DNA of 64,000 bases from Nostoc sp. TCL240-02 (GTDB lineage: Bacteria; Cyanobacteriota; Cyanobacteriia; Cyanobacteriales; Nostocaceae): positions 4,712,501 to 4,776,500 of the forward strand of contig NZ_CP040094.1 in assembly GCF_013343235.1 (NCBI RefSeq). Reading direction: 5' to 3'. A program made the translations under genes and the position numbers. The notes below the pieces were generated by a model that had not been told where the DNA came from, made no database searches, and saw nothing but the letters and a program-made list of their open reading frames with translations. Of this stretch, positions 3,123 to 61,572 are shown piece after piece (positions within the stretch are counted from its first letter, which is position 1; each line of letters begins with the position of its first letter).

Positions 3123-4571
3123 TCAAGCACGTTTTTGCAATGATTTATATTCAAATTCAGCAACACCTAGTTGTTTTTTAAAGTAAGCGCGGTAGAGTTG
3201 GCAACGCGGTAAGATGCGATCGCCTTCATAAGTGATTAATCCCAAGCTTTCCAGTTTATGAGCGTCAATGGGATTCAAAGAAATGCTTTGCTTTGAGCTA
3301 ACAACTTCAATATATGCTTTTACCAAACTAGAATTTTCTTGCAGAATTGCCCAGTGTCGCCATAAATGATAACGGTAGATACCGCCGTTAGCGATCGCCT
3401 CATACATTACTTCCTCTAAGGTGATTCCTTGACAGCATATATAATACAGAGCAATCCGAATTAGCGCTGGATGTCCCCCCACCAGAGACATCAGTTGCGT
3501 AACCTCGTTGTGAGAAGTCCAGTCTAGCCCATGCCGTTGGGCCAAATACTCTACTTGATACTTAGTAAATTCTGGCAGACGGATCGGTAGTCCAATGTTA
3601 AATGGGGAACGGTTGATATCTAGAGAGACGTAAACTTCTGTAGAATAAACCACCAGTAGCCTAAGCTTCTGCAAGTTAGCATCTTGTCGTGCTTCTTCAT
3701 ACCAAGAGCGTAACAAACCAAAGAACTCCTGAGCAATTTGAGGATATTCAAAAAAGTGGTCAACCTCATTTAACACTAAAACCACTGGACTTTTACTCTG
3801 CTTCAGCAAGTATGATTGTAAGTATAAACTGCAACTTAACTTACAGCCTATTTCCTCATCCCAGTTTTCATCTAGCTTAGGGTCTATGCCTAATTCTGTT
3901 GCAATTTGCCAGCAAAAAGAACGCAAAAACTTGTTTAAGTCTGTCAGACAGGTTGCATCCATTTGCTTGCAATTCAGGTTCACAGCACGATAACCTTGCA
4001 TCTGGGCAAAAGCCAATAACCGCAACACAAGAGAAGTTTTTCCCATCTCTCTTGGCGCTCGAATTCGGATCACACAGCCTGGTTGAATTATTTCTCGATA
4101 AACTAATTCTTCAATGGGAGGACGTTCGACATAGAAGGGGGAATCTAGAGCTACGGGGCCATCTGGGTATGACCAAAGATTTTCGAGTTGATTATGGTGC
4201 TGAGTAACAAATGATTCTAAGGATAAAGGCGGAGATAATTTCTTTTCTCCTGTATCTAAACTCGACAATTGAGTTGGAGAGACTACAGTAGTATTCGGTT
4301 CACTCAAAATTGTGTAGTCTTCCCTGTGTAATTCTAGGTTAAAGGCGGTAAAGCACAATTTTAAGGTTTTTTGATCCACGCCTGTATTCAACGACCATAA
4401 TCGGTTCAGGGTTTTGGTTGAAACATTCATGCGATCGCCTAAATCTTCTAGAGTGAAGTGATTGCCATTGTTTTGAACCTTTTCCATAGCCAGAATCGCC
4501 GCTTGTAAACGCTTCAATCCAGCGATCGTTAGGACAATTCCCCGCTTTCGCGTACTCTTAGATTGCTTCAT
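3123..4571 (-). CDS. AAA-like ATPase (AAA_35 type) with N-terminal helix-turn-helix
   Basis: A 482-residue cytosolic protein. Residues 1-100 are basic and contain a helix-turn-helix-like stretch (FTLEDLGDRMNVSTKTLNRLW). After a linker comes an ATPase domain of the cyanobacterial AAA_35 type, with Walker A RAPREMGKTSLVLR (GKTS P-loop) and Walker B PVVLVLNEVDHFF, where the usual second acidic residue is Glu. The Arg-rich GLPIRLPEF stretch and the C-terminal winged-helix-like part are also typical. In this group the P-loop ATPase is often linked to signalling or effector modules, and the precise function is not established. The gene stands alone, with a long A/T-rich upstream region. Confidence 0.7.
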   Translation of the reverse strand: MKQSKSTRKRGIVLTIAGLKRLQAAILAMEKVQNNGNHFTLEDLGDRMNVSTKTLNRLWSLNTGVDQKTLKLCFTAFNLELHREDYTILSEPNTTVVSPTQLSSLDTGEKKLSPPLSLESFVTQHHNQLENLWSYPDGPVALDSPFYVERPPIEELVYREIIQPGCVIRIRAPREMGKTSLVLRLLAFAQMQGYRAVNLNCKQMDATCLTDLNKFLRSFCWQIATELGIDPKLDENWDEEIGCKLSCSLYLQSYLLKQSKSPVVLVLNEVDHFFEYPQIAQEFFGLLRSWYEEARQDANLQKLRLLVVYSTEVYVSLDINRSPFNIGLPIRLPEFTKYQVEYLAQRHGLDWTSHNEVTQLMSLVGGHPALIRIALYYICCQGITLEEVMYEAIANGGIYRYHLWRHWAILQENSSLVKAYIEVVSSKQSISLNPIDAHKLESLGLITYEGDRILPRCQLYRAYFKKQLGVAEFEYKSLQKRA

Positions 4572-5324
4572 ATTGCTAATTATCTATCTGTTTTTTTCTT
4601 TACTGCCTTAGCTCTCTCCTCATTGTTTCATGTTTTAAAACAGTTATTCAACAGTTACTTAACTGTTATTAAGTTACTCAATAGTTAGTAAAAAAATATA
4701 CTTGATTATCTTATGAAAGTTAGATAGGTGGGTATAAACAAACATAACTTTTTCTTTCCCCTACGGTAAGCTGCTGATGCTTGTGCATCAAGTGTTTTTT
4801 ACTACTTGCAAATAATAAATGACTTGCCTTAATAGTTCACTTTATTTGTGCAAACTGCCTAGATATTACTTAAAGTTATTTCTTATTTAGTATTGATATG
4901 GATTTTGGAGCGCAAATCCATCCCAATTCTTATCGGGTTTTGGGGAAAAGGAGGAAAGAAAAAACCTTTACTCTTTAACATTTTCCTCGAACCCACTTCC
5001 AAGTTGAAAATGCTTTACCCCACCGAAGCAGTATTGAGTGAGATCCATCCAATAAAGTGTAATATGCTGGCGATATCTACGATCGGCTACGCCACCTACG
5101 CTTCTCAACATTAGCAATTCTTTTTTAGATGTAACATGCAGTAGGGGCGTACAGCTAGCTGTACGCCCCTACTAAAGACCTATATTTTATGCACCTGAAA
5201 AACGCTACAATCTTTTACAAGCAAGGGTAAAGGCGTTATCCAAGTATTAGAATTCGTTATTTAAGGGCATTAGGGGGATTTAAAAGTGCCTAAAGTTACA
5301 GTGAAACACTTTTCAAACGACCTC
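4572..5324. other. Gene-free stretch between two minus-strand genes
   Basis: A/T-rich DNA without a convincing gene. It presumably holds the promoter of the AAA_35 gene near 4600-4750, where short ACTGTTA/AACAGTT repeats cluster around 4635-4690. The only clear structure is the perfect palindrome at 5141-5172, listed separately. Confidence 0.5.
5141..5172. repeat. Perfect 32-bp palindrome, dispersed repeat family
   Basis: The sequence GTAGGGGCGTACAGCT is followed directly by its reverse complement, giving a perfect 32-bp palindrome with no loop. A degenerate relative with the same core (ACAGCTAGCTGT, preceded by GTAGGGACGC) lies at about 56594-56622, so this is a dispersed element rather than a local operator. 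Confidence 0.75.
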
Positions 5325-5720
5325 TTAGCGTCGAACTTGGTTAGAGATATTTTTGCCTGTCTGTGCTGCACTGTTCCCTACATCATTAGCAGTTTCCTGA
5401 GCCCCCTCTACATACCCAGAACCAAATTGTTTAAAGGCTTCTGCTGACTGTTCTCCAATCTTTTGAAGTCGTTCACCAGGAGAACCTTCTGTTTCACGAG
5501 CGTCTTTATACCACTCCCCTACTGTTTTCGGTCTTTGAGAATCATCTTGCTGTATCTGTTCGCTAACTCTCTCCTTTAAGGCTTTGTCATTCTGCCCATA
5601 AGTAACATTCGTCGTCAGCACTAAAAAACCAACTAGGACAACAGCCAAAAAACGTGTTACCTGAAGTCCTTTAAGCACAGAACTGATGTGACCAATTTTT
5701 CTAGAAATCAAATTTATCAT
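5325..5720 (-). CDS. Hypothetical membrane-anchored or exported small protein
   Basis: About 131 residues from the ATG at 5720; an in-frame TTG at 5747 would add nine residues. Residues 20-42 form a hydrophobic segment (FLAVVLVGFLVLTTNVTYG) that could be a signal peptide or anchor. The rest is hydrophilic and helical, with many Gln, Glu, Lys and Ala. The tail (EGAQETANDVGNSAAQTGKN) resembles the repeated amphipathic helices of stress-induced, low-temperature or LEA-like proteins of cyanobacteria. A periplasmic stress protein is plausible, but I have no firm family. It is convergent with nothing and probably has its own promoter in the long gap upstream. Confidence 0.55.
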   Translation of the reverse strand: MINLISRKIGHISSVLKGLQVTRFLAVVLVGFLVLTTNVTYGQNDKALKERVSEQIQQDDSQRPKTVGEWYKDARETEGSPGERLQKIGEQSAEAFKQFGSGYVEGAQETANDVGNSAAQTGKNISNQVRR

Positions 5721-5747
5721 GCCAATTAGCTTGTTTTTTGAGTACAA

Positions 5748-6191
5748 ATAAACATTAACTATAAAAGGGTAATTATCCTTCTAACAAAAGGCATATCTCA
5801 GTTATAAAAAAGAAATACTTTTTAAACCTTGGGGAGGAGGTGGTTTGTGAGATAAATAGATATTTGCATTCATTTATGTGCAAGAGCAACGAGCAATACT
5901 GCCTTTCCCTAGATAGTCCATCGCTGAATAAATTAAACTGTTATGAGAAATATGATAAAGGGCTACACTTCACTATTATCAAGTCTTGTCAATCTAATCA
6001 GTAAAATTATGATGCTAAAAAAATCCCACAATTCCAAGTGAATATAGCTTATAAAAACTCAGTAGATTTGGTTGATATTGCTATTCTAAAAATCTCATTA
6101 TTTTGGTATTTAAGTTTATCAAAAATTGCCTCAAGATTACAAGTATTAGTGTGATATTATTTGAACCAATTAAGTCAATATTTTCAAGGCT
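5748..6191. other. Gene-free A/T-rich stretch
   Basis: No open reading frame of convincing composition. It probably contains the promoter of the minus-strand gene ending at 5325. I see no defined repeat or RNA gene here. Confidence 0.4.
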
Positions 6192-6453
6192 ACTTTGGAG
6201 GATAATATGTCAATTAAACCTCATCATATTGAAACCTAGAGTTTTTTAAAAGATATATTTATGTAGGTTAGGTGGAGTGAAACACAACCCAATATTACCA
6301 CCTTATTTATGTTGGGTTATGCTATCGCTGTACCCAACCTACAAAACTTTGGAGGATAATATATGTCAATTATCTGGTGAAAATCAACGAAAACCTTTAA
6401 ATATCAGCCCTGAACTAGAAGAAATTGCTAAACTAATCTATTTGCTCTAGGAT
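6192..6453 (+). pseudogene. Remnant of a small gene split by a palindromic element
   Basis: The same ribosome binding site plus start (ACTTTGGAGGATAATATG followed by TCAATTA) occurs twice, at 6192-6216 and, with a two-base insertion, at 6346-6372. The first copy encodes only MSIKPHHIET before a stop. The second is out of frame with a downstream stretch reading ENQRKPLNISPELEEIAKLI up to a stop near 6450. Between the copies sits the inverted-repeat element at 6263-6342. The simplest reading is one small gene duplicated at its start, interrupted and then decayed. The original product is unknown. Confidence 0.4.
6263..6342. repeat. 80-bp inverted-repeat (MITE-like) element
   Basis: The element starts GTAGGTTAGGTGGAG and ends with CCCAACCTAC. 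Inside, ACACAACCCAA pairs with TTGGGTTATGC-type sequence. GTAGGTT/AACCTAC termini with CCCAAC blocks are typical of the small dispersed hairpin elements of Nostoc-type genomes. It lies between two copies of a duplicated start region. Confidence 0.6.
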
Positions 6454-6914
6454 ATTTAGTCACGCTTCGAAGACCATTGTAAACAATTGATCGCGTGATA
6501 AAACAGTTGGGATTACCATAAATTTCCATAATTCATCCTAAAAAAGTATTTAAATGCTCAATAACAGCTTTTTTAGGAGTCTTAATCTTTGTTTATAAAT
6601 CATGCTTAAGATTCCTTCGGTTGGCAAATGTAGCACTAAATACATTTTTAATGCTACATTTGGTTTTTAATACAGATAGAGTTTAAAAAAACATATATCT
6701 TTAGTTATAAAAATTATCTATCTAAAGAGATGGATAATTCCTAAATAGCTACTCAGAACAATCAATAGTCACAGAACTTTTAGGCTAGAGATATTATTTG
6801 TCTGATTGAGTGGATTTATACCGTAATCCCTAGATATTTGAAGGGCTTGCAGAGGACAAATTAATCCACATTTTTTCCTCAATACGAGAACTGCTTTAGC
6901 TGGAAAGCCAAAGG
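6454..6914. other. Gene-free stretch upstream of the metalloprotease gene
   Basis: A/T-rich. ATTTTTAGTGCTACATTTG-like sequence near 6630-6665 contains a short imperfect inverted repeat (AAATGTAGC / GCTACATTT) with a following run of T, which could be a small terminator. The remainder presumably holds the promoter of the gene at 6915. Confidence 0.35.
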
Positions 6915-20163: not shown

Positions 20164-23100
20164 TTAATTTTTAATTCCGCCTTGGGGTACTAGCCTTGCC
20201 TTAAGGGGGATAGAAACAATAAATTCAGCCCCTTGTCCTAAAACGGATACACATTCTAACTGTCCTCGATGCTTTTTAGTCACAATCTGGTAACTAATAG
20301 ATAGCCCTAAACCAGTGCCTTTACCAACAGCTTTGGTAGTGAAAAAGGGTGTGAAGAGTTGCGATCGCACATTCTCACTGATACCAGAACCGTTGTCAGC
20401 AATGCGAATGACGGCTAAATCGCCTTCAACAGTAGTACGAATTGTAATGATACTTGGCTGAAGTGCGATATCGGCATAAGTCCGATGTTCATTAAATTCC
20501 TCTAAAGAGTCGATCGCATTTGCGAGCAGATTCATAAATACCTGATTCAGTTGTCCAGGGTAGCACTCTACAGGTGGCAGGTTGCCATACTCCTGTATTA
20601 CCTGAATTCCGGGAGAGTCAGGTTGGGGTTTGAGCCGATTTTGCAAAATCATTAGAGTACTATCAATGCCCTCATGGATATTAACGGCTTTAACATCAGC
20701 TTCGTCTAGGCGGGAAAAGTTTCGTAAAGATAATACAATTTGACGAATGCGATCGGTTCCCACTTGCATGGAAATCAACAGCTTAGGTAAGTCTTCCATC
20801 AAAAAATCTAAGTCAACTGCATCTATTTCATTTTGAACTTGAGGTGGTAAATTCTGGTTTTGCTGCTGATAAAGTTGTACTACACTCATCAAGTCTTTGA
20901 CATAATTATTTACGTAAGTCAGGTTGCCGTAGATAAAGCTGACTGGGTTATTAATTTCGTGAGCAACACCTGCCACCAACTGCCCTAGGCTAGACATTTT
21001 TTCGCTTTGCACCATCTGAGACTGGGTAAGCTTCAATTCATCGAGTGTGTGTTCTAGCTGCTTTGCTTTCTCACGCGCTTGTGTTTCCGAAATTTCTAAC
21101 TCCTGGGAGTATATGTGCAAATTTGTGTAGAGCCGAGCATTTTCTATAGAGATGGAAACTTGCGAAGTTAATAAGTTCAGTACCTCTAATCGATCTGCGG
21201 TAAAGACTCCGGTAGTGAGATTATTTTCCAGGTAAAGAACTCCAGTTAGCTTACCCTGATGAGAGAAAGGCAAACACAAGATTGATTTGGGTTGATTGGC
21301 AACAATATAGTTGTCACTCACAAAACGCTCTGTGTGGCTAGCATCGTCTAAAACCAAATTTTCTTTTGTTCTTTCAACGTAGTTAATCAGCAAAACTGGT
21401 AGCTTATGCTTTACTTGAAATAGACTCGACGATCGCACTGTTACTTGATCTCGATCAATACTTCCTTCGGCTTCGATCACCCACTGGTTCTCTCGTTTTA
21501 CAAGTAGATAACCCATTTGGGCACCAGCATTCTCGATCGCGATCGTCATCATTTTCTCTAGCAGCGGATTTAGCTCCATCTCGCTTGAGAGTGCTTGAGA
21601 CGCTTTAATTGCTGTGCTTAAATCTAGAGTTTGGGTTTTAGCTTCAGAAATATCCCGAATCTGTTTTGTAGCCGTACTACGCCCATTTACCTCCCTGGCT
21701 GGATCTCTAAAAAGTTGGGAGTATTGTTCATCCAGTTGTCGGACTTTACCTGTAGCTTCCCACTTGAGATACCGATAGCGGGCTTCTTTAAAATAAACTT
21801 TGGCAAAGTTTATTCTATCCTTGTCCAAGTAAAATCGAAATGCAAGTTCGTTTGCTAAGGCTTCATTTTGTAAATAACCGTTTTCGCCAGCAGAAGCGAT
21901 CGCTAGATCATACAGCTCCATTGCCTGATAATCTTGTTTAGAAATCCGAGCAATTTCAGCTTGAATCAGCAAAAACTTGTGTTGATAATTGGTTGGGCAG
22001 TGCATTGCCCATTGCTGGAATTTTTCTAAGTTGGCATTTAATTTATGCAGATAAATAACTTGAGTTGCGGTATCGGCCTCCACACAAGCCCCTGCTAAGG
22101 CAATACTTTGGTGAAAATAGAAAACAGGATTAATAAAAATTCCTCGCGCTCCCGCAACAAATTTTTCGGCATTCTCTGCATATTCAACAGCTTTGGTATA
22201 CTCTCCATACCAGTTACAGAGCGCCAGTTTATAGATGTAAACTACAAATGCACTCAACATATCCGAAGATGCCAATGCAAACTCTAGCACTTGCCGTTCA
22301 TCTGCCCAAGTGCCCACAAGTTCGTCAATCTTGCCTGCTGGCTTAGTCAAATTAGCGATCGCTTCCATAGCCAGCAGATGGTAGTTCAACATATTTTTGT
22401 CAATCTTGCGGAGGCTAGGAATAAAATCTTTGGCTACTTCTGCGGTTTTTTCTAAAGATTCATTTCCAAATAAGCACTGCCATAAAAAATTAACTGAACA
22501 ATAACCAGACCACTGATAAGAACCTGTTTCTAAACCACTATTAAATCCTTTTAATAAATAAGGTTTACCCTGGCTAATATGGTCTTTGTAGTGACGAATT
22601 AAACCTCCCCACATATTCAAAATATTCGCTTCCAATTCCTTCGTTCTTAAAATCTCATGCAAACGCAGAGATAATTCACCAAATTCATAACCTGAATCTA
22701 CTTCACCATATTCAAATACTAAGTTGAAAGAATACAGCATATAACCAAATACAGAAATTCGTGAGTTTCCATACTGAACTGAAAGTTGAGTTATGTTCAT
22801 AGATGTAATATGCAACGCTTTAGATCCTAAAAAGTAGGCAATGGGCCAAACTTCTTTTAAGATGCGTTGAGCTATTAGCTTTTCCTCGTCTTGCATTTGT
22901 GGTAATTCTGCAAGACTAAAAGTTGTGCGATCGCCAATAACTTTTTTTGTTTGATTAAGTTTTTCTAATAGATATGCATCATCGGGATAGGCTGCAAACT
23001 CAAAACCTAAAAGTTCTAAGGTGTTTAACCCAATTTTATATGCAGAGTTTAAATCATTCTCCATGCGATAACACATAATCAAATATTCATTGACTCGACA

Positions 23101-25626
23101 CATATCAAGAGTAGTTTTAACCTTGGTGAAAGTCTGCCCGAAAATCAGCAAAGCTTTCTCATAGTTACCATTTAAAAACTCTGCTTCTCCAACTTGCAAA
23201 TATAAAGTTAACGTAAGTAAATATTTATCTTCCCAGCTATTCTCAGGTAGATAATTCATCCCAATTTCCAGCAATTTGAGTGCAGTTACAAACGCCGAAG
23301 ATGATTTTGCCCGTTGACCTGCTTTCAGATTTAATTCTGCTAGTTCATATCTTTCTGCTAGTTCTACAATCAATGAACTGCCAGCATTGAGATGGTTGAC
23401 GATCTCAAAAAGATGTTCTTCTAATTGGGCTTTTTCAGTATTATGTAATAGTAATTTACCTACCTTCAGGTGTACTTGTTTTTGCTGATCGGTGGGAATT
23501 AAAGAATAGGCAGCTTGCTGAACGCGATCGTGCAAAAACTTATAGTCAACTTGTACCGCCGTATCACAGTATGTTGCCAATTCTGACTGATTCAACAACT
23601 GAGGAATTTTGTAAGTATCGCTTAAAGGTAGAATTAATCCCGCCCGCAAAGCTGACCATAAATCAATTGCTGTTGCTGATGCAGATTTTTCGTTGACTAC
23701 AGCTAGTATTTCTAAATTAAAGCGGTTTCCAACACAAGCAGCTAATTGTAAAACTTGCTGCGTTGGTGCTGATAATCTCTGAATTTTATTCACCATTAAA
23801 TCGACTACATTATCGGTAATATCTTGTTCCTGAATTCTGTTAAGATTCCACTGCCATAAACCTAAACGATAATCAAATGTCAAGAGATTATCTTGATGCA
23901 ATACTTTTAGTAACTGAGTCAAGAAAAAGGGATTACCTTGGGTTTTTTGAAATAGCAAATCAGCTAGAGGTTCTGCCTGAGATGATTCGCAGTTGAACGT
24001 GTCACTAAGCAGTTGAGTAATATGAGGTGTTGCTAATGGCTTCAAAAGCAACTCTTCAATGGTTGCCCCAGATGCTCGAATTGCCTCTAGCATTAGCATC
24101 AGTGGATGGGTGGGACTAACTTCGTTATCTCGGTAAGCCCCAATCAGTAATAGATACCGACTTTCTGGGTCAGTCATCAAATTTTCGACCAGCTTCACAG
24201 AGGCAGCATCCGCCCATTGGAGGTCATCTAAAAACAATACTAAGGGATGTTCAGCAGCAGTAAAGGCATGGATAAATTGCTTAAACACCCGATTAAAACG
24301 GTTTTGAGACTCAGCAACCCCCAATTGGGGTACAGGCGCTTGCTGTCCAATAATCAGTTCTACTTCCGGGATGACATCAATAATAACTTGACCATTAGCT
24401 CCCAATGCTTGTAGTAATTTATTTTTCCAAACCTCAACTCTGGCTTGGCTTTCAGCTAACAGTTGCCGCATCAATTCTCGAAATGCTTGAATCAAAGAAG
24501 CATAAGGAATATCTCGCTTGAGTTGGTCAAATTTGCCACCGATGAAGTAACCTCGTTGCCGTACAATCGGTTTGTGAACTTCGTTAACTAGTGAGGATTT
24601 ACCGATGCCTGAATATCCTCCTACCAAGACAACTTCACTCTCACCAAGACTAACTTTATCGAAGGCAGACATTAGAGTTGCTACTTCTACTTCCCGACCA
24701 TAAAGTTTTTGAGCTATTTGGAATTGATGCGAAAAATCCTGCTGACCCAAGCTAAAAAGGTCAATGCTGCCTTTTGTTTGCAGTTGTATCGCTGCTTGCT
24801 CTAAGTCAGCCTTTAACCCGTAAGCACTCTGGTAACGGTCTTCAGCAGTTTTGCTTAGAAGTTTCATAGCGATCGCAGAGATTCCCAATGGTACATTAGG
24901 ATTAATCTCGTGCGGAGCTACAGGAATTTTGGCAATGTGACAATGCACCAACTCCATTGAGTCTTGAGCATTATGGAAGGGAAGCTGACCAGTCAGCATT
25001 TCGTAGAAACTGACACCTAATGAGTAAAAATCTGTCCGATAATCTAAGGTTCGGTTGATACGTCCGGTTTGCTCTGGTGACATATAAGCCAGTGTTCCTT
25101 CTAGAAGGTTGAGGCTAGTAATTTCTGGACTTTCTTTGGATAACAGCGAAGCGATGCTGAAATCAATCAGTTTTATTTTTTCGGTATTGGGGTTATAAAG
25201 AATATTTTCGGGCTTAATATCCTTATGGATAATGTGGTGGGTATGTAACTCTCCCAATGTTCCAGTAATTTGATCGGCAATGTTAAGAAATTTTGTAATT
25301 TCAATCCCTGTCGTAGATATCTGATGTTTTAAGCTTTCTCCACCAAAGTCTTCTAAAACCAGTGCTAGACCATTATTGTAGCCGTTGTCATAACTGATTA
25401 ATTCATGGGCTTTAATTACACCTGCAATATTCAAATTTTGGATGATTTCGTATTCGTGCTTGAGTTGGGCAATCTCTTTGATACTGGGATACTCTGCTTT
25501 GAGCAGTTTGATAACAACTGAGTGTCCGTTAGCCTTGGAGTATGCTCGATAAATTACTGTGGTAGCAGCTTCATAAATTAAACTTGTAATACTATAGTTA
25601 GGGATGTGAGCAATTAATTTAAACAT
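20164..25626 (-). CDS. Serine/threonine kinase - AAA ATPase - GAF - sensor histidine kinase fusion
   Basis: An 1820-residue signalling protein. In order: a Ser/Thr kinase domain (residues about 1-270) with [14 protein letters not shown], catalytic Asp136, and LIDFSIASL instead of DFG; a P-loop ATPase ([15 protein letters not shown], Lys343; Walker [13 protein letters not shown]) of the AAA_16 type; a long helical TPR-like middle; a GAF domain at about 1330-1490; and a histidine kinase with phospho-acceptor His1556 in [12 protein letters not shown] and an ATPase with [10 protein letters not shown] and GTGLGLS. Such trifunctional proteins are typical of filamentous cyanobacteria. Asp-Phe-Ser in place of Asp-Phe-Gly is seen in some active family members. 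Signals and partner regulators are unknown. Confidence 0.92.
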
Positions 25627-55922: not shown

Positions 55923-56355
55923 AGTTAAAAATATTGTTACGATTTACTAATAGAGTACAATGGGAGATTGCTGAAGGGTTACTTTTCTTATCGATAACGA
56001 AACGAACTTTTTTTAATTATCGCCAAAGTCTTCAGCAATTTTTGTCGTATTAGTTGACTTAATAGACGCGGTAGCGGACGAATCATCTCTACCATTTGAC
56101 CAGATTTTCCTGAAGAGCGTATAGTCTCTAGTTTAGCTGAGGACTTGATTCTAAAATTGGACTTTAGTTGTAGACACTAGATATTGACAAATTTGAAATT
56201 TAGTGTATAAGAGAATTTTGCATCAGATAACTCCATAGCTAAAGGTTCAGATGAGCGATCGCATTACAGAATAATTTCCACTTAAGTCCATAGCGATCGC
56301 AATCATTAAATTGTATGATTTGACTCAAAAATATGCTTGAAGATAAGGGAAGGTC
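55923..56355. other. Gene-free stretch ahead of the DUF4157 region
   Basis: Contains two HIP1 sites and, at 56271-56310, ATAATTTCCACTTAAGTCC plus HIP1, which is repeated almost exactly at 58804-58840 ahead of the second intact DUF4157 gene. It is therefore the duplicated promoter-proximal block of the decayed copy. Confidence 0.55.
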
Positions 56356-56582
56356 ATGGATGTCGAACAGCAAACCTCTGTGCATCTAAGCTAATCGTCC
56401 TTTAAATTGCACTATTTTCATAGTAATAAACCCTCTCCCCTGCCCCCTGCCCCCCTGCGGTCTCAATGTGCAAATTAAATGCTTGACAGCTTACCCATAT
56501 TTTGGCGCAAGAAAGCAGGGGCATCCACTTTTTAAAATCCGTCGTTTGTCTCACCAAAAATTCCAACACTGGCAAGCCCAAC
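56356..56582 (+). pseudogene. Decayed N-terminus of a third DUF4157 (eCIS core domain) paralog
   Basis: An ATG at 56356 begins MDVEQQTSVHLS and then stops; the DNA aligns with the start of the gene at 58925 (CAAxCTTCTGxGCATCTAxGC). At 56508-56582 a second piece reads ASTF*NPSFVSPKIPTLASP, which matches the leader of the intact paralogs (STFINPSLASSTIPTLASP). Between them about 110 bases of unrelated DNA, including a CCCCTGC array, have been inserted. Its upstream region is also duplicated. Everything past the leader is gone. Confidence 0.75.
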
Positions 56583-56593
56583 ACATAACCACG

Positions 56594-56622
56594 TTGTAGG
56601 GACGCACAGCTAGCTGTGCAAC
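56594..56622. repeat. Degenerate copy of the GTAGGGGCGTACAGCT palindrome
   Basis: TTGTAGGGACGCACAGCTAG followed by CTGTGCAA. The central ACAGCTAGCTGT is the same as in the perfect palindrome at 5141-5172, the outer arm differs. Confidence 0.55.
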
Positions 56623-56886
56623 TAATGAAACAATGATTTTTGGGGAATTAAACCGCGTCTATGTTGAAAACTGTAGTTTTTTGGAATTAGGGTAAAGCTC
56701 AAAACTCAAGCTACGACCTAATAATATACTCTTCTTAATCACTCCAGGTTTCAACACGGACAAGGTTGATATCAAGTATAAAATCGGATAATTTATACTA
56801 AAGTCCATTAGGATTTGATACAAACAAATTGTATCCTGTATCTTAGCAGTATGCTGTAGTTAGGCTATTGATGGAGGAAAGTTAAG
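56623..56886. promoter_or_regulatory. Upstream region of the first intact DUF4157 gene
   Basis: A/T-rich DNA with TATAATTT-like and TATACT sequences (for example at 56723 and around 56795), preceding GGAGGAAAG and the ATG. A promoter is expected here, but no start point can be fixed. Confidence 0.35.
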
Positions 56887-58602
56887 ATGAGCAATGTCCA
56901 AAGACGAGCCACTTTGCGTCCCAGTACGGTTGGACATCAGAAAGCAAATACATCTACTTTTCTGAATCCATCCCTTGCCTCACCAAGTATTCCAACGCTG
57001 GCGAACCCGATACGCGGCTTTGGCTCCCAAACAATGTCATCAACAGACCTTCAAGAGGTGCAGTCTGCTGATGAGCAAGGAGTAAAATCTGAACCAATCA
57101 AACAATCGCCTCTGAGTCATGACATTAGTCGTATGTCATTGCGTCCACAAAAAGCATTCACCAAAGGCGTGATTAATAGATTAGAAAATGCAGTCATTCA
57201 GGGAAGTGGTATAAAAAACGCCTCCTATGGAGCCGACGTTGTGCCTCCTAGTGGTGGACAAAATCTTCCAGAACCTATCCTAGCAAAGATGCAGACAGCA
57301 TTTAATGCAGATTTATCAGATGTGAAAATTCATACAGATGGTCAAGCAGAAAAGCTAGGTTCTCAGGCTTTCGCATCTGGTAATAATTTACATTTTGCTC
57401 AGGGAAAGTACGATCCGGAAAGTCAATCTGGTCAAGCTCTAATTGGACATGAATTAAGCCATGTAGTACAACAACGACAGGGACGGGTTAATATCCCAAA
57501 ACTACCTGGAGAAGGGAATTCCATAGTTGTGCAAGACCAAGCTTTGGAAGCAGAAGCTGATTTACTAGGTAATAAGGCAGCAGCAAGCCCTGATGCAATC
57601 ACGAAACAGTCTATTCAAGCCAAGAAAATAGACGGAACTGTAAGCAAGGCAGTTCAGCAAAAGCCAATTGTACAAAATGTTCTACCAGTAATTGGTACGA
57701 TCGGTGCTTGGGGTGCTAGTCTCGTAACTGAATCAGCAGCAGCAGCAGCAACCGTAGCAGCAGCAACCATTCAAGCGGGACAAGCAGCTGCACAGGTAGG
57801 AAGTGCGCTTGCTCCTGGACAAAGCGGTGTTCAAAGCGTTCAACTAGATAATGGATATATGTCACCTGTAGATAAACAAAAACTACAGTTGATTACCCAA
57901 TATCGTCTAATTAATGCCTATGTGAGTCACTGGAAACGACAGCATCCTGATGTACCCCTAGCTCCACCGACCCAAGGAACTGCCCCAGCCCCGACCCCAG
58001 CAACTCCAGCACCGACCCCAGCCCCAGCAACTCCAGCACCAGATTCACTTAATCAATCTGGTGGTACTTTGGATTTAGCCATCTTGGAAGCTGTAAAGGC
58101 AGAAGTTCAGTTGCAGATTGAAACACTACTTAATACAAATCAAAAAACAACAAACAATGTAGAATTTATTTGGTCAGACAGTGGAGATCACACAGCAGAT
58201 ATAGTCGGTACTGTTGGAGCAGTTGGGTTTAGCAATCTTAGAGGAACTTTTATCAAGGAAACTCTGCAATTAAGTAGTGATGCGGCTCAAATCCCGAACT
58301 TAGATCCGCCAAGCAGGGGACAAGAAATGGATGTGAGACAATTCCGAGGTGGAAGTATGCGTCGGGGTTCTTCAATGTCAATTGGCTATGGTGATTCGTT
58401 ATCCATCAATTTGACAGGTAGCGGCCCGACAATTGACCATGCGGGCAACAATGGTCATGGAGAACACACTTACTCTACTGACTGGAATTGGGATGGCAAT
58501 ACAACACAAGGAGATTTCCCTCTATATATTCTATCTGATGGAACTCCTGTATTTAATTATGCAAAATGGAGCGGTACACCCGACGATAATTCCTATTTTT
58601 AG
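56887..58602 (+). CDS. DUF4157 (eCIS core domain) protein, candidate injection-system cargo
   Basis: 571 residues; GGAGGAAAG is a strong ribosome binding site. The leader (residues 1-75) is shared with the next paralog: STFLNPSLASPSIPTLANP, RGFGSQTMSS, LQEVQSADEQ, PLSHDISRMSL. Residues about 130-205 are the DUF4157 domain with HELSHVVQQRQG (HExxH at 188-192). An Ala-rich hydrophobic stretch (about 275-310) and a Pro/Ala/Thr linker (PAPTPATPAPTPAPATPAP) lead into an unknown C-terminal domain (about 395-571; GGSMRRGSSMSIGYGDSLSI, DHAGNNGHGEHTYSTDW). DUF4157 proteins are associated with extracellular contractile injection systems. The C-terminal part is the presumed effector; its activity is unknown. 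Confidence 0.75.
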   Translation: MSNVQRRATLRPSTVGHQKANTSTFLNPSLASPSIPTLANPIRGFGSQTMSSTDLQEVQSADEQGVKSEPIKQSPLSHDISRMSLRPQKAFTKGVINRLENAVIQGSGIKNASYGADVVPPSGGQNLPEPILAKMQTAFNADLSDVKIHTDGQAEKLGSQAFASGNNLHFAQGKYDPESQSGQALIGHELSHVVQQRQGRVNIPKLPGEGNSIVVQDQALEAEADLLGNKAAASPDAITKQSIQAKKIDGTVSKAVQQKPIVQNVLPVIGTIGAWGASLVTESAAAAATVAAATIQAGQAAAQVGSALAPGQSGVQSVQLDNGYMSPVDKQKLQLITQYRLINAYVSHWKRQHPDVPLAPPTQGTAPAPTPATPAPTPAPATPAPDSLNQSGGTLDLAILEAVKAEVQLQIETLLNTNQKTTNNVEFIWSDSGDHTADIVGTVGAVGFSNLRGTFIKETLQLSSDAAQIPNLDPPSRGQEMDVRQFRGGSMRRGSSMSIGYGDSLSINLTGSGPTIDHAGNNGHGEHTYSTDWNWDGNTTQGDFPLYILSDGTPVFNYAKWSGTPDDNSYF

Positions 58603-58803
58603 GTTTGACTTTACCTAGCAGAAAATTTCCGAAAACGCTCAAAATAATTGCTAAATAGTGAAGAAGGAATTTTCATTGAAAGTCACAGATTCCCGACTTT
58701 TTGAGAAGTTGAGATCTGTAACTTTCACGAATGATTAGAATGCTATATGATGGTCACTTGATTGCTGCTTATTAAAGCTATCTAAGCTCCACGTATGGAA
58801 GAG
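58603..58803. other. Spacer between the two intact DUF4157 genes
   Basis: GAGTTGAGATCTGTAACTTTC-like sequences around 58680-58735 form an imperfect inverted repeat (GAAAGTCACAGAT / ATCTGTAACTTTC), a possible terminator or regulatory hairpin of the first gene. Otherwise no element. Confidence 0.4.
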
Positions 58804-58840
58804 ATAATTTCCACTTAAGTCGATGGCGATTGCCTACGGC
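58804..58840 (+). promoter_or_regulatory. Duplicated upstream block of the second DUF4157 gene
   Basis: ATAATTTCCACTTAAGTC followed by a HIP1-like GCGAT site, the same as at 56271-56310 before the decayed copy. Conservation of this block outside the coding part points to a shared promoter or operator. Confidence 0.4.
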
Positions 58841-58924
58841 ACACTACGTAATCGCAATTAGATAAATTTTATGATGTGTGTTATCAATATGCCTTGGTTG
58901 AGCCATAAATGAAGGAAGGGTGAT

Positions 58925-60898
58925 ATGAGCAATGACGGACGACAAGCTTCTGGGCATCTACGCATAGTTCAGCATCAGAAAACAGGTATATCCACTTTTA
59001 TAAATCCGTCTCTTGCCTCATCAACTATTCCCACACTGGCTTCTCCAATGCGTGGCTTTGGTTTACAAACAAATAATCCTCCAATCCAAAGACTAACTGA
59101 GGCATCAACTGAGCTTCAAGAAGTGCAGTCTGCTGATGAGCAATTCTTGGAACCAGAAGCCGTCAAACAACAGCCCCTTAGTCATGATATTAGTCGCATA
59201 TCCTTGCATCGTCCCCAGGCAAAACTCACAGTTGGTGCGACAGACGATCATTATGAGCAGGAAGCCGATCAAGTTGCCGATCGGATTATGCGAATGGCTG
59301 AACCAGAGCCAATAGGTTTACAGAATACACAAACTCAAGACCAAGTGCAAACTAAGCCTCTAGCCTCTGCCATAACTCCTCTAGTGCAACGGGAGGCAAT
59401 GCCAGAAGAGGAAGAGGAGTTACAAACTAAACTTATTAATGCACCTATCCAAAGAGAGATTTTACTAGAAGAAGAATTACAAACTAAGCGATCGCTACAA
59501 CTCGCTACCAATGACAGCTTTCAGACTGAGGACAACTTTGAAAGTCGGCTAAACAGCAGTGAAAGTGGAGGAAGCCCGTTACCAGATACAGTGCGTTCTT
59601 TCATGGAACCACGTTTTGGTACAGATTTTAGTCAAGTACGGTTACATACAGGCACTCAAGCGGTGCAGATGAATCAGGATTTGAATGCTCAGGCATTTAC
59701 CCACCAGCAAAACATTTTCTTTGGTGCAGGCAAGTCACCAGGTAATGATGCATTAACCGCCCATGAACTGACTCATGTGGTGCAGCAGACGGGAACAGCC
59801 CAGAGAAAATTAATTCAACGGGCAATTAATCCCACATACGATCTGACACATGGTGTTTTTGAAGTAAATGCCACACCAAACGGCGCGAGTTTACCGATTA
59901 CTATTCGTTTCAAACCCAAAACCACCGCTCCCTACTCTAACCAGATTGGACTGATTCAGATTGTGCGTCTGACAAATGCTACAGGTACAAATGTCGAACC
60001 TCAGTCTTTACCTGCTGCTAGTGGTGCTAGCCTCCGTACCACTGCTGATGCAACCACGGGAGTTGAAGGCGGATATTTCACTGATGCGCTGCATAATGAT
60101 GCACCTGCCCACGGTGGTACAGGAACCAATGCCGCAGCCGGAAGTGCATTACCTGCCCAGTACCCCTTTGGCAACGACCCAGCCCAACCCAATCCCGCAA
60201 CCCCTGGACTTTCACGACCCTCTTCTAGCGGTGCAAGCGGAGCCACTATTGGTTACAAACGCTCCGATGACCCCACTGATATCAAAGCAGCAGAACTAAC
60301 CGATGCTCCCGGAGGGGCTGGTGAGTTCAACTTCGACTTTCAGACGGTGGCTAAGGGAGAAGACACCATGACAACTTACGGAGCGCTTCATTGGGGCTTC
60401 CAAATCCGTGCTGGCAAAGTTGAGAACGATCATGCATCAGCACAGGATGGTCAATCTGCCACCTTCGATGCAGCTTTGCAGAAGCATCAAGATTTTTACG
60501 TACACGAACCAGTCATTTTTTACTTTGATTTCGACAGTGACCAACTGAGTTCCAGCGAAACAGGCAAGATTGATACATTCTTAGATTACCTGCGGCGATT
60601 CCCTGATGTAAAAGTAACTCCTGAAGGCTTCGCTGACAGGCGCGGCGGTGCTTCTCAGCACAACCTCGATCTATCTCTACGCAGAGCGCAGGCAGTGGGA
60701 GCAGCCCTGCGTGCTAAGGGTGTAGCTGAAGCTCAAATTAGTGCTGTTACTATCGGCTCTGGTTCAACCGAAGACTTTACCCCTGATGCCACAACTAACC
60801 AAGATACAGAAGCAAATCGTCGGGGCAATCGCCGGGTCGTTTTGAGCTTTCAGCATGTGCCAGCAGCAGCACCAGCAGGGGGAGGAGGGACACCTTGA
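58925..60898 (+). CDS. DUF4157 (eCIS core domain) protein with C-terminal OmpA-like domain
   Basis: 657 residues. Leader as in the previous gene (STFINPSLASSTIPTLASP, RGFGLQTNNP, LQEVQSADEQ, PLSHDISRISL). A short Glu-rich region and a QREAMPEEEEELQTK-like repeat follow. The DUF4157 domain ends with AHELTHVVQQTGTAQ (HExxH at 280-284). An unknown middle domain (about 300-530) leads to an OmpA-like peptidoglycan-binding domain (about 535-650): FYFDFDSDQLSSSE, DRRGGASQHNLDLSLRRAQA, and the ANRRGNRRVVLSF end. The OmpA part suggests anchoring to peptidoglycan. The HEAT-repeat gene overlaps its stop codon. Confidence 0.8.
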   Translation: MSNDGRQASGHLRIVQHQKTGISTFINPSLASSTIPTLASPMRGFGLQTNNPPIQRLTEASTELQEVQSADEQFLEPEAVKQQPLSHDISRISLHRPQAKLTVGATDDHYEQEADQVADRIMRMAEPEPIGLQNTQTQDQVQTKPLASAITPLVQREAMPEEEEELQTKLINAPIQREILLEEELQTKRSLQLATNDSFQTEDNFESRLNSSESGGSPLPDTVRSFMEPRFGTDFSQVRLHTGTQAVQMNQDLNAQAFTHQQNIFFGAGKSPGNDALTAHELTHVVQQTGTAQRKLIQRAINPTYDLTHGVFEVNATPNGASLPITIRFKPKTTAPYSNQIGLIQIVRLTNATGTNVEPQSLPAASGASLRTTADATTGVEGGYFTDALHNDAPAHGGTGTNAAAGSALPAQYPFGNDPAQPNPATPGLSRPSSSGASGATIGYKRSDDPTDIKAAELTDAPGGAGEFNFDFQTVAKGEDTMTTYGALHWGFQIRAGKVENDHASAQDGQSATFDAALQKHQDFYVHEPVIFYFDFDSDQLSSSETGKIDTFLDYLRRFPDVKVTPEGFADRRGGASQHNLDLSLRRAQAVGAALRAKGVAEAQISAVTIGSGSTEDFTPDATTNQDTEANRRGNRRVVLSFQHVPAAAPAGGGGTP

Positions 60899-61572
60899 TC
60901 TTGAGAACGATCGGAATATTCGTGATACTTGTGATGCTGGCGATCGGAGGAAATTTGTATATGAATAATCAAGACGCTACCGCGACACCTATGAAGCAGA
61001 TCAAAGCACGTCTCTACTCCACAGATCAAGACACTAGCGCTTTAGCACTAGGTGAATTGATCCGTTTAGGCAAAAAGGCTACCCCGGTTTTATTGGAAGC
61101 TTTGACTAATCCCAACCCCCGTACCCGTCGGCTTGCAGCCGAGGGACTGAGCGAAATTGCCGATCCCGCTAGTGCCGATGCTTTGTTCCAAGCCACTCAT
61201 GACACTAATCCAGAAGTGCGTGCCCGTGCTGCCACTGCTCTACACCAATTAGGAGATAAACGTTCATTATCCGCTTTGGTCGCTACCCTTGATGATTACC
61301 CTGACATCCTGCACAATCCCTACACAGCTTCGATGTATCCTTTAATGCGAGGTGGAAAAGAAGTTTTACCTTTGGTAATTCCTCTTTTGCAAGCACCAAA
61401 TGATCTCACTCGTGAGCGGGCTTTTTTGATTGTTAAAGCTGTAGTGAGTAAGCTACCCCAAGGGCAAGACTGGAATCAGTTGTGGCAGAGTTTGGGAAGT
61501 TATGATCCCGCAGGTCAAAAGACAGAACGTGACAAGGCTGCTCAAAAATGGCAGGAATGGTTGAGCAAATAA
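60895..61572 (+). CDS. HEAT-repeat protein with N-terminal membrane segment
   Basis: 225 residues. The TTG start overlaps the TGA of the OmpA-DUF4157 gene by four bases, with GGAGGAGGG a few bases before, so translation is coupled. Residues 5-22 (TIGIFVILVMLAIGGNLYMN) are a signal anchor. HEAT/PBS-type repeats follow: ALALGELIRLGKKATPVLLEAL, RRLAAEGLSEIADPASADALF, VRARAATALHQLGDKRSLSAL, and a less regular last part. HEAT solenoids bind proteins, so it probably is a partner or chaperone of the DUF4157 protein that it is coupled to, in the periplasm or at the membrane. Function is inferred from position. Confidence 0.75.
   Translation: MILRTIGIFVILVMLAIGGNLYMNNQDATATPMKQIKARLYSTDQDTSALALGELIRLGKKATPVLLEALTNPNPRTRRLAAEGLSEIADPASADALFQATHDTNPEVRARAATALHQLGDKRSLSALVATLDDYPDILHNPYTASMYPLMRGGKEVLPLVIPLLQAPNDLTRERAFLIVKAVVSKLPQGQDWNQLWQSLGSYDPAGQKTERDKAAQKWQEWLSK

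Follow-up and report, generated by a model that had tools for sequence, protein, structure and literature searches.

We analyzed a stretch of 64,000 nucleotides of the Nostoc sp. TCL240-02 chromosome (contig NZ_CP040094.1, positions 4,712,501 to 4,776,500; hereafter the window) in which two neighboring genes, here called w1 and w2, encode proteins with a DUF4157 domain, the core domain of extracellular contractile injection systems (eCIS). Both proteins begin with a related N-terminal leader, and a HEAT-repeat gene follows w2. The features of these genes, in window positions, are:

56887-58602, + strand: w1, intact, 571 amino acids (aa); leader (aa 1-98), DUF4157, hydrophobic helix and beta-rich C-terminal domain
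56887-57180, + strand: w1 leader, from the leader alignment; AlphaFold2 predicted local distance difference test (pLDDT) score 27-36 per 10-residue block over aa 1-100
57265-57483, + strand: w1 DUF4157 domain (HELSH), Pfam eCIS_core/DUF4157, aa 127-199, E 1.7e-24
58925-60898, + strand: w2, intact, 657 aa; leader (aa 1-107), DUF4157, middle part and OmpA
58925-59245, + strand: w2 leader, from the leader alignment
59576-59797, + strand: w2 DUF4157 domain (HELTH), Pfam, aa 218-291, E 3e-28
60521-60805, + strand: w2 OmpA domain of peptidoglycan-binding type, Pfam, aa 533-627, E 5.4e-15; NCBIfam Pal/YiaD-like matches under cut-off
60895-61572, + strand: HEAT-repeat gene, 225 aa; Pfam HEAT_2, 3.7e-24; hydrophobic N-terminus

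The leaders (aa 1-97 of w1, 1-107 of w2) are 56% identical (E 6e-28) in an alignment that is separate from the DUF4157 block, and they contain two conserved boxes, box A (approximately PTLANPxRGFG) and box B (approximately PLSHDISRISL). The C-terminal parts of w1 and w2 do not align at E ≤ 1e-3. No separate gene lies between w1 and w2, and the end of w2 overlaps the start of the HEAT gene by 4 bp. A preliminary description of this DNA, made from the letters and translations, had placed DUF4157 in both intact proteins, unrelated C-terminal parts behind it (with OmpA in w2) and a coupled HEAT-repeat gene downstream, and all of this is borne out. It had also reported that sheath, tube and baseplate genes are absent from the window. 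We likewise saw none, because among 19 reference proteins (CIS, that is contractile injection system, loader and HEAT proteins) compared with the open reading frames (ORFs) of the window, only HEAT matched strongly; a kinase (7.9e-9; 20164-25626) and a response regulator (3.8e-7; 1527-2234) were weak matches.

A mobile leader module

The leader is a mobile module that is separable from DUF4157. Used as a query, w1 residues 1-100 found 17 proteins, five of them (P0005, P0006, P0012, P0015 and P0016) without a DUF4157 annotation, and residues 1-75 of e1, a DUF4157 protein encoded in the CIS operon of the same genome (described below), found 110. At leader E ≤ 1e-3, the loci yielded 135 ORFs, of which 128 are non-identical and 89 complete. 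In all 89 the leader begins by residue 55; 63 have DUF4157 and 26 do not (two of the latter are shorter than 200 aa), and there are 63 C-terminal groups. At E ≤ 1e-6 there are 81 complete non-identical proteins, including w1, w2, e1 and its operon neighbor e2; 59 contain DUF4157 and 22 lack it, absence being judged by a custom hidden Markov model (HMM) at E ≤ 1e-3. These 81 proteins fall into 55 C-terminal groups without detectable mutual similarity, and cross-group pairs with a leader alignment of at least 60 aa (n = 2511) have a median leader identity of 47%.

The C-termini attached to the leader are diverse. A Pfam scan of 10 further leader proteins, which were selected for annotated extra domains and thus give no estimate of frequency, found a toxin-like or enzyme-like C-terminal domain in nine: Tse2-like ADP-ribosyltransferase, RNAse_A_bac (just below cut-off), M35 peptidase, EndoU, aldo/keto reductase, Scabin-like ADP-ribosyltransferase, actin-fragmin kinase, Ntox16 and M15 peptidase. 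The tenth matches mTERF. Conversely, the C-terminal domain of w1 occurs with and without the leader. Seven of its 32 relatives (P0001-P0004 and P0128-P0130) have the full leader, P0131 has a weak one (E 6.5e-6), and the remaining 24 (P0132-P0155; best leader E 0.25) have N-termini of other kinds, a few of which may miss the true start. The leader-bearing w1 homologue P0128 is plasmid-borne according to its record (Nostoc linckia NIES-25), and this location suggests mobile cargo.

The w1 leader is predicted to be disordered, with a pLDDT of 30-36 per 10-residue block over aa 1-50; a mean below 40 is the criterion applied to PVC-type signals (PMC11495950). The first 35 residues of the w1 and w2 leaders have mean Kyte-Doolittle values of -0.47 and -0.34, respectively.

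Contractile injection genes and a Pvc16-linked ATPase

The genome (7.89 Mb, a single contig) encodes six DUF4157 genes with seven domain matches. Consistent with the earlier proposal that w1 and w2 are eCIS cargo, a search of the same genome identified both a CIS gene set, at about 3.186-3.219 Mb, and a loader-like gene pair at 5.570-5.573 Mb. The CIS set comprises sheath, three gp19 tubes, Pvc16_N, spike hub, gp25, baseplate J, Tail_P2_I and CIS_tube. Two DUF4157 genes, e1 and e2, lie within this operon and have a shorter form of the leader (FSIPSLKHPTPGFG ... PVTHDISRIPL). Their DNA is 91-93% identical from ~100 nt before the start codon through the end of DUF4157, with no detectable similarity thereafter, the pattern that would be expected of C-terminal exchange. 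The loader-like pair consists of a Pvc16_N protein (Pvc16b, 425 aa; 8.3e-44) and, with a 4-bp gene overlap, a winged-helix/AAA ATPase of 662 aa (AAA 1e-23; winged-helix domain, WHD, 2.5e-20). The ATPase has one Pfam AAA stretch, and two of its stretches match Cdc48/p97 chains. Among the ORFs between 3.18 and 3.25 Mb, where the CIS genes lie, no relative of this AAA protein was found at E ≤ 1e-5.

A leader match is present in 56 of 247 relatives. Pvc16_N is present in 55 of these 56 and in 85 of the 191 leader-negative genomes (p 3e-15), and a sheath match in 55 of the 56 (at E ≤ 1e-100, 54/56 versus 51/191). The sharpest association is with a close orthologue of the 5.57 Mb AAA protein, found in 50/56 versus 2/191 genomes (p 6e-43), given an orthologue threshold of E ≤ 1e-290 chosen after inspection of the table and genome sets entered by hand. 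When only the 61 genomes whose sheath match has E = 0 are considered, the orthologue is present in 48 of 52 leader-positive and two of nine leader-negative genomes (p 2e-5). The preliminary description had named, as evidence that would speak against it, a leader widespread in genomes without contractile injection genes; we found the contrary, the sole leader-positive genome without Pvc16 (G076) holding a remnant of 61-62 aa with a stop. The leader matches of G024 and G076 are fragments of about 60 aa only. As for the two genomes with the AAA orthologue that were counted as leader-negative, G070 has a diverged leader (E 0.006) in a gene about 1.7 kb from the AAA gene, and G016 has no leader match better than E 0.74.

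The leader genes are also physically linked to these partners. A contig scan with two peptide patterns, which misses distant leaders, identified 63 leader loci, all under cyanobacterial names; in 33, the available flank includes the Pvc16b/AAA pair or a gene of the CIS core. At least 13 of the 52 AAA orthologues have a leader hit within 10 kb (0.29 expected), a lower bound counted among the leader positions listed. G035 and G015 have the gene order Pvc16b, AAA, DUF4157-less leader protein (386-388 aa), w1, w2 and HEAT, with one or two other genes interspersed. Pvc16b, AAA, leader genes and HEAT form one block in L114 and L115, and in G127 (L216) the AAA gene has a leader gene and genes of the CIS core as neighbors. 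These arrangements refine the earlier reading: the closest partner of the leader is a Pvc15-like AAA protein, which in relatives is encoded next to leader genes along with a Pvc16 protein. A gene for a Uma2-type putative endonuclease lies between the AAA gene and the leader block in L114 (14097-14807) and L115 (8368-9078; Pfam on the L114 copy).

The chromosomal site of the window contains w1, w2 and HEAT in G052 and G047, and two other leader proteins together with w2 and HEAT in G022. G026, which has one flank in common with this site, contains w2 and HEAT only, and in G018 and G043 w2 and HEAT lie at other places. The comparison of this site across relatives therefore indicates that its content changes cargo by cargo.

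Leader similarity follows the neighboring AAA protein across loci, whereas that of the adjacent DUF4157 domain does not. We compared 34 loci with a usable linked DUF4157 gene, out of 60 regions chosen for AAA diversity rather than randomly. Leader and AAA similarity are correlated (Mantel r 0.35, p 0.0002), while for the DUF4157 domain of the same proteins r is 0.11 (p 0.15); the partial r of leader and AAA given DUF4157 is 0.34. In a single genus (15 loci) r reaches 0.67 (p 0.0002) in a hand-edited set, from which G057 was dropped and in which G077 was replaced, G081 and G084 were trimmed and six leader genes without DUF4157 were added; the unedited 34-locus correlation has the same sign. Leaders of similar AAA proteins from different genera have a median similarity of 0.19 (138 pairs), versus 0.07 for different AAA proteins within the same genus (76 pairs), the pairs not being independent. 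In G036 and G063, each with two AAA loci, the leaders are unlike. DUF4157 proteins linked to other AAA clades have other leaders, such as QFEGRGFAVQ, QFAPRRFVIQP, LQTRPFA and LLQRKCACG, in classes named by eye.

Decayed third copy and upstream element

A decayed leader gene precedes w1, and both it and w2 are preceded by a related DNA element:

56235-56336, + strand: upstream element of the decayed copy, from blastn and profile; common to regions 5' of relatives' long-leader genes
56356-56394, + strand: start of the decayed leader gene (MDVEQQTSVHLS*), read directly; 12 codons from the ATG at 56356 to a stop; similar by blastn to the start region of w2
about 56509-56580, + strand: box A relic with one internal stop; tblastn E 8e-8, leader HMM 28.8 bits
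58804-58924, + strand: upstream element of w2; 90% identical to that of the decayed copy across 30 nt

The relic of box A reads KKAGASTF*NPSFVSPKIPTLASP, and its HMM match spans model positions 5-35. The preliminary description had all three copies sharing three leader motifs. This is incorrect for the decayed copy, because LQEVQSADEQ and PLSHDISR were not recovered in it; only the start and box A are kept. In a comparison with nine loci of relatives, the relic is closest in DNA to the leader of a gene in L115 that encodes a 388-aa leader protein without DUF4157 (83% over 96 nt).

With window positions 56000-56900 as a blastn query, upstream segments in L114, L115 and L155-L157 are about 79-87% identical. 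A profile of the element, made from 46 of 64 long-leader hits, matches 5' of 64 of 71 long-leader rows versus 1 of 44 short-leader rows, the rows not being deduplicated between collections. In its own genome, the w2 element matches, besides itself and the decayed copy, two weak and short stretches only. These lie away from leader genes (about 36-45 nt; L166 and L167, at about 1.4336 and 6.1184 Mb). We considered the element as the mark of a regulon, which gained no support, since it was not found at the CIS and AAA genes of the genome; it is reported here as shared DNA only.

Proposed cargo loading and its alternatives

Given the leader modularity, co-occurrence, gene linkage and covariation presented above, we consider it likely that in w1 and w2 the cyanobacterial CIS of this genome has orphan cargo genes and that the leader is a loading signal, in AAA-specific classes, read by the Pvc16-linked AAA protein. 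The suggestion of the preliminary description that a conserved leader with exchangeable C-termini marks CIS cargo, with the leader as the loading signal, gains support from the 55 C-terminal groups and from the near-constant presence of Pvc16_N and sheath matches in leader-positive genomes. In the mechanism we propose, the first ~95-107 residues would form a disordered two-box loading signal, and the winged-helix/AAA ATPase at 5.57 Mb would most likely read it and thread the cargo into the tube, as Pvc15 does in Photorhabdus virulence cassettes (PVC); recognition and tube loading are proposed by analogy with the PVC work as presented in the accessible part of PMC11495950. Different AAA clades would pair with different leader classes. 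The shared DNA (upstream element and leader, sometimes to the end of DUF4157) may permit C-terminal exchange by recombination. The C-terminal domain of w1 would then be the putative effector part, and the OmpA part of w2 suggests action at a cell wall. The anchoring by OmpA and assistance by HEAT that the preliminary description had suggested gained no support here. A broader form of this proposal we hold in even balance between belief and doubt: each winged-helix AAA clade may read its own leader class, cells with several loaders (G036, G043 and G063) may keep separate cargo sets, and any protein that gains a leader may become cargo, with or without DUF4157.

Several observations weigh against this reading. 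In this genome 1.55 Mb separate the window genes from the CIS operon, and 0.8 Mb separate them from the AAA gene; since they are not adjacent to the operon, we call their membership in the CIS cargo probable, not proven. The AAA protein scores under every NCBIfam cut-off, and its best match, far below, is the anti-phage ATPase IteA. Two other DUF4157 genes of the genome, g1738 and g1973, have an N-terminus of a third kind (RPFG/RPYG..., FGHNxANIPL), and no AAA protein matching them was seen, a single close AAA having been found in the genome. Six of the 56 leader-positive genomes (G024, G030, G074, G076, G118 and G126) have no close AAA orthologue. Because the genomes are related, the Fisher and Mantel p-values are too optimistic, and because AAA and cargo genes are often neighbors, co-transfer might account for part of the covariation; the DUF4157 control speaks against this, but that domain is short and conserved. 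In structure prediction, a check named in the preliminary description, the w1 C-terminal domain is modeled at pLDDT ≥ 86 per block (residues 401-560) but has no convincing match among solved folds, and the w2 model is too poor overall for the disorder threshold to be applied.

Alternatively, the leader may be an evolutionary hitch-hiker, a 5' recombination platform for C-terminal exchange with no role in loading, while DUF4157 does the docking. The conservation of the DNA upstream of long leaders and the abrupt end of e1/e2 identity behind DUF4157 would both fit such a platform, as would the Streptomyces DUF4157 protein that, in the available part of PMC13277306, was tested for spike-protein binding. 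It is nonetheless an unlikely account, since the leader is recognizable as a protein sequence across genera and tracks the AAA type, unlike the adjacent DUF4157, leader proteins without DUF4157 exist, and the short-leader genes keep the same two protein boxes behind different upstream DNA.

Somewhat more doubtful still is an accessory role of w1 and w2 in the structure or anchoring of the CIS, for w2 by way of OmpA and HEAT, instead of one as injected effectors. We recognized no toxin domain in w1 or w2 with Pfam and NCBIfam, nor by fold comparison for w1, and w2 has, besides OmpA, an obligate HEAT partner whose first ~25 residues are hydrophobic, all of which would suit a structural part. Yet strong w2 matches (E ≤ 2.1e-189) are confined to 16 of 198 genomes, which makes w2 unlike a structural part; the other 35 of the 51 matching genomes have weak matches of E 1.5e-9 or worse. 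The same chromosomal site in a relative carries other leader proteins, and other leader proteins bear toxin or enzyme domains.

The HEAT gene (E ≤ 1e-20) occurs in 16 of 247 genomes, the same 16 as strong w2, and by the listed coordinates it lies directly downstream of w2 in all of them; where first-look candidates were many, only part was scored for these w2 and HEAT counts. HEAT is a strict, dedicated partner of w2, for which immunity, anchor and chaperone roles would all fit, self-protection or anchoring being the most likely.

That the leader targets another route or place, such as the thylakoid or the envelope, or is a propeptide cut by DUF4157, is improbable, as leader genes among the 247 relatives occur only alongside CIS genes (one relic excepted), 22 of the 81 leader proteins lack the DUF4157 that would do the cutting in cis, and the negative hydropathy of the first 35 residues is unlike a Sec signal.

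The cited sources were available to us in part, and comparisons with them apply to those parts. The N-terminal signals of PVC cargo are about 50 aa long, with rare homology among lineage Ia signals, yet they can be grouped (Evans and Waterfield, PMC11495950). Danov et al. (2024) detected no conserved signal sequence for eCIS loading, and the PVC/Afp signal is described there by composition and disorder rather than by conserved sequence (PMC11297309). The Nostoc leader resembles the Pvc15-dependent signals in being a predicted disordered N-terminal tag on unrelated payloads, with an AAA protein encoded together with a Pvc16 homologue and cargo beside the loader in relatives. It differs in that the tag, ~70-107 aa long, has boxes conserved in sequence and often precedes DUF4157, and in that the AAA protein is a WHD-AAA with a single Pfam AAA match.

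DUF4157 itself has been proposed to act in loading, release, maturation or trafficking (Geller 2021, PMC8213781). As in the eCIS-associated toxins (EATs) of Geller (2021) and Danov (2024), DUF4157 here lies between the N-terminus and variable C-terminal domains; adjacency to CIS loci is usual for EATs, whereas the window genes lie far from the operon, and those sources describe no shared, alignable leader found also on proteins lacking DUF4157 and covarying with AAA type. In the thylakoid-anchored CIS (tCIS) of Anabaena PCC 7120, two DUF4157 cargo genes, for the putative effectors Alr3311 and Alr3312, stand beside the structural genes (PMC8894136). The Nostoc genome has, judging from genes alone, the same kind of CIS core set with two adjoining DUF4157 cargo genes; the tCIS description, in the part available, mentions no leader. 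In the open-access literature searched, with preprints outside its scope, we found no description of a conserved cyanobacterial CIS leader.

Polymorphic toxin systems (contact-dependent inhibition or CDI, Rhs and MIX-type) combine a conserved N-terminal trafficking part with exchangeable C-termini. With the leader as a putative trafficking part, the leader proteins resemble them in both respects and in the downstream partner gene of w2, and differ in that the likely delivery machine is a CIS. With its two conserved boxes and its covariation with a specific AAA protein, the leader offers residues that can be tested by point mutation, and the leader/AAA pairs provide a natural series for tests of specificity. 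Leader searches offer a route to cargo that lacks DUF4157 or gene adjacency, and the leader would explain how orphan cargo remote from the operon may still belong to the CIS.

Between leader and DUF4157, e1 and e2 (L013:1777-3456 and 4477-6600) contain repeats of ~22 residues (QREALPEDEEELQMKPLDNSTL-like), which differ in copy number and form a variable acidic spacer. The DUF4157 genes g1738 and g1973, at 1.738 and 1.973 Mb (L016:9597-11492 and L017:9596-11863), are 74% identical over their first 292 residues, and the second encodes two DUF4157 domains. The third gp19-type tube gene of the CIS region (L012:18794-19327, - strand) is on the opposite strand, away from the sheath gene and the two tube genes next to it. 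Adjoining this 177-aa tube-like gene is a gene for a protein of 1180 aa (L012:15228-18770, - strand) without a Pfam or NCBIfam match. Its uncut relatives are 1006-1304 aa long, and it is possibly a tape measure protein.

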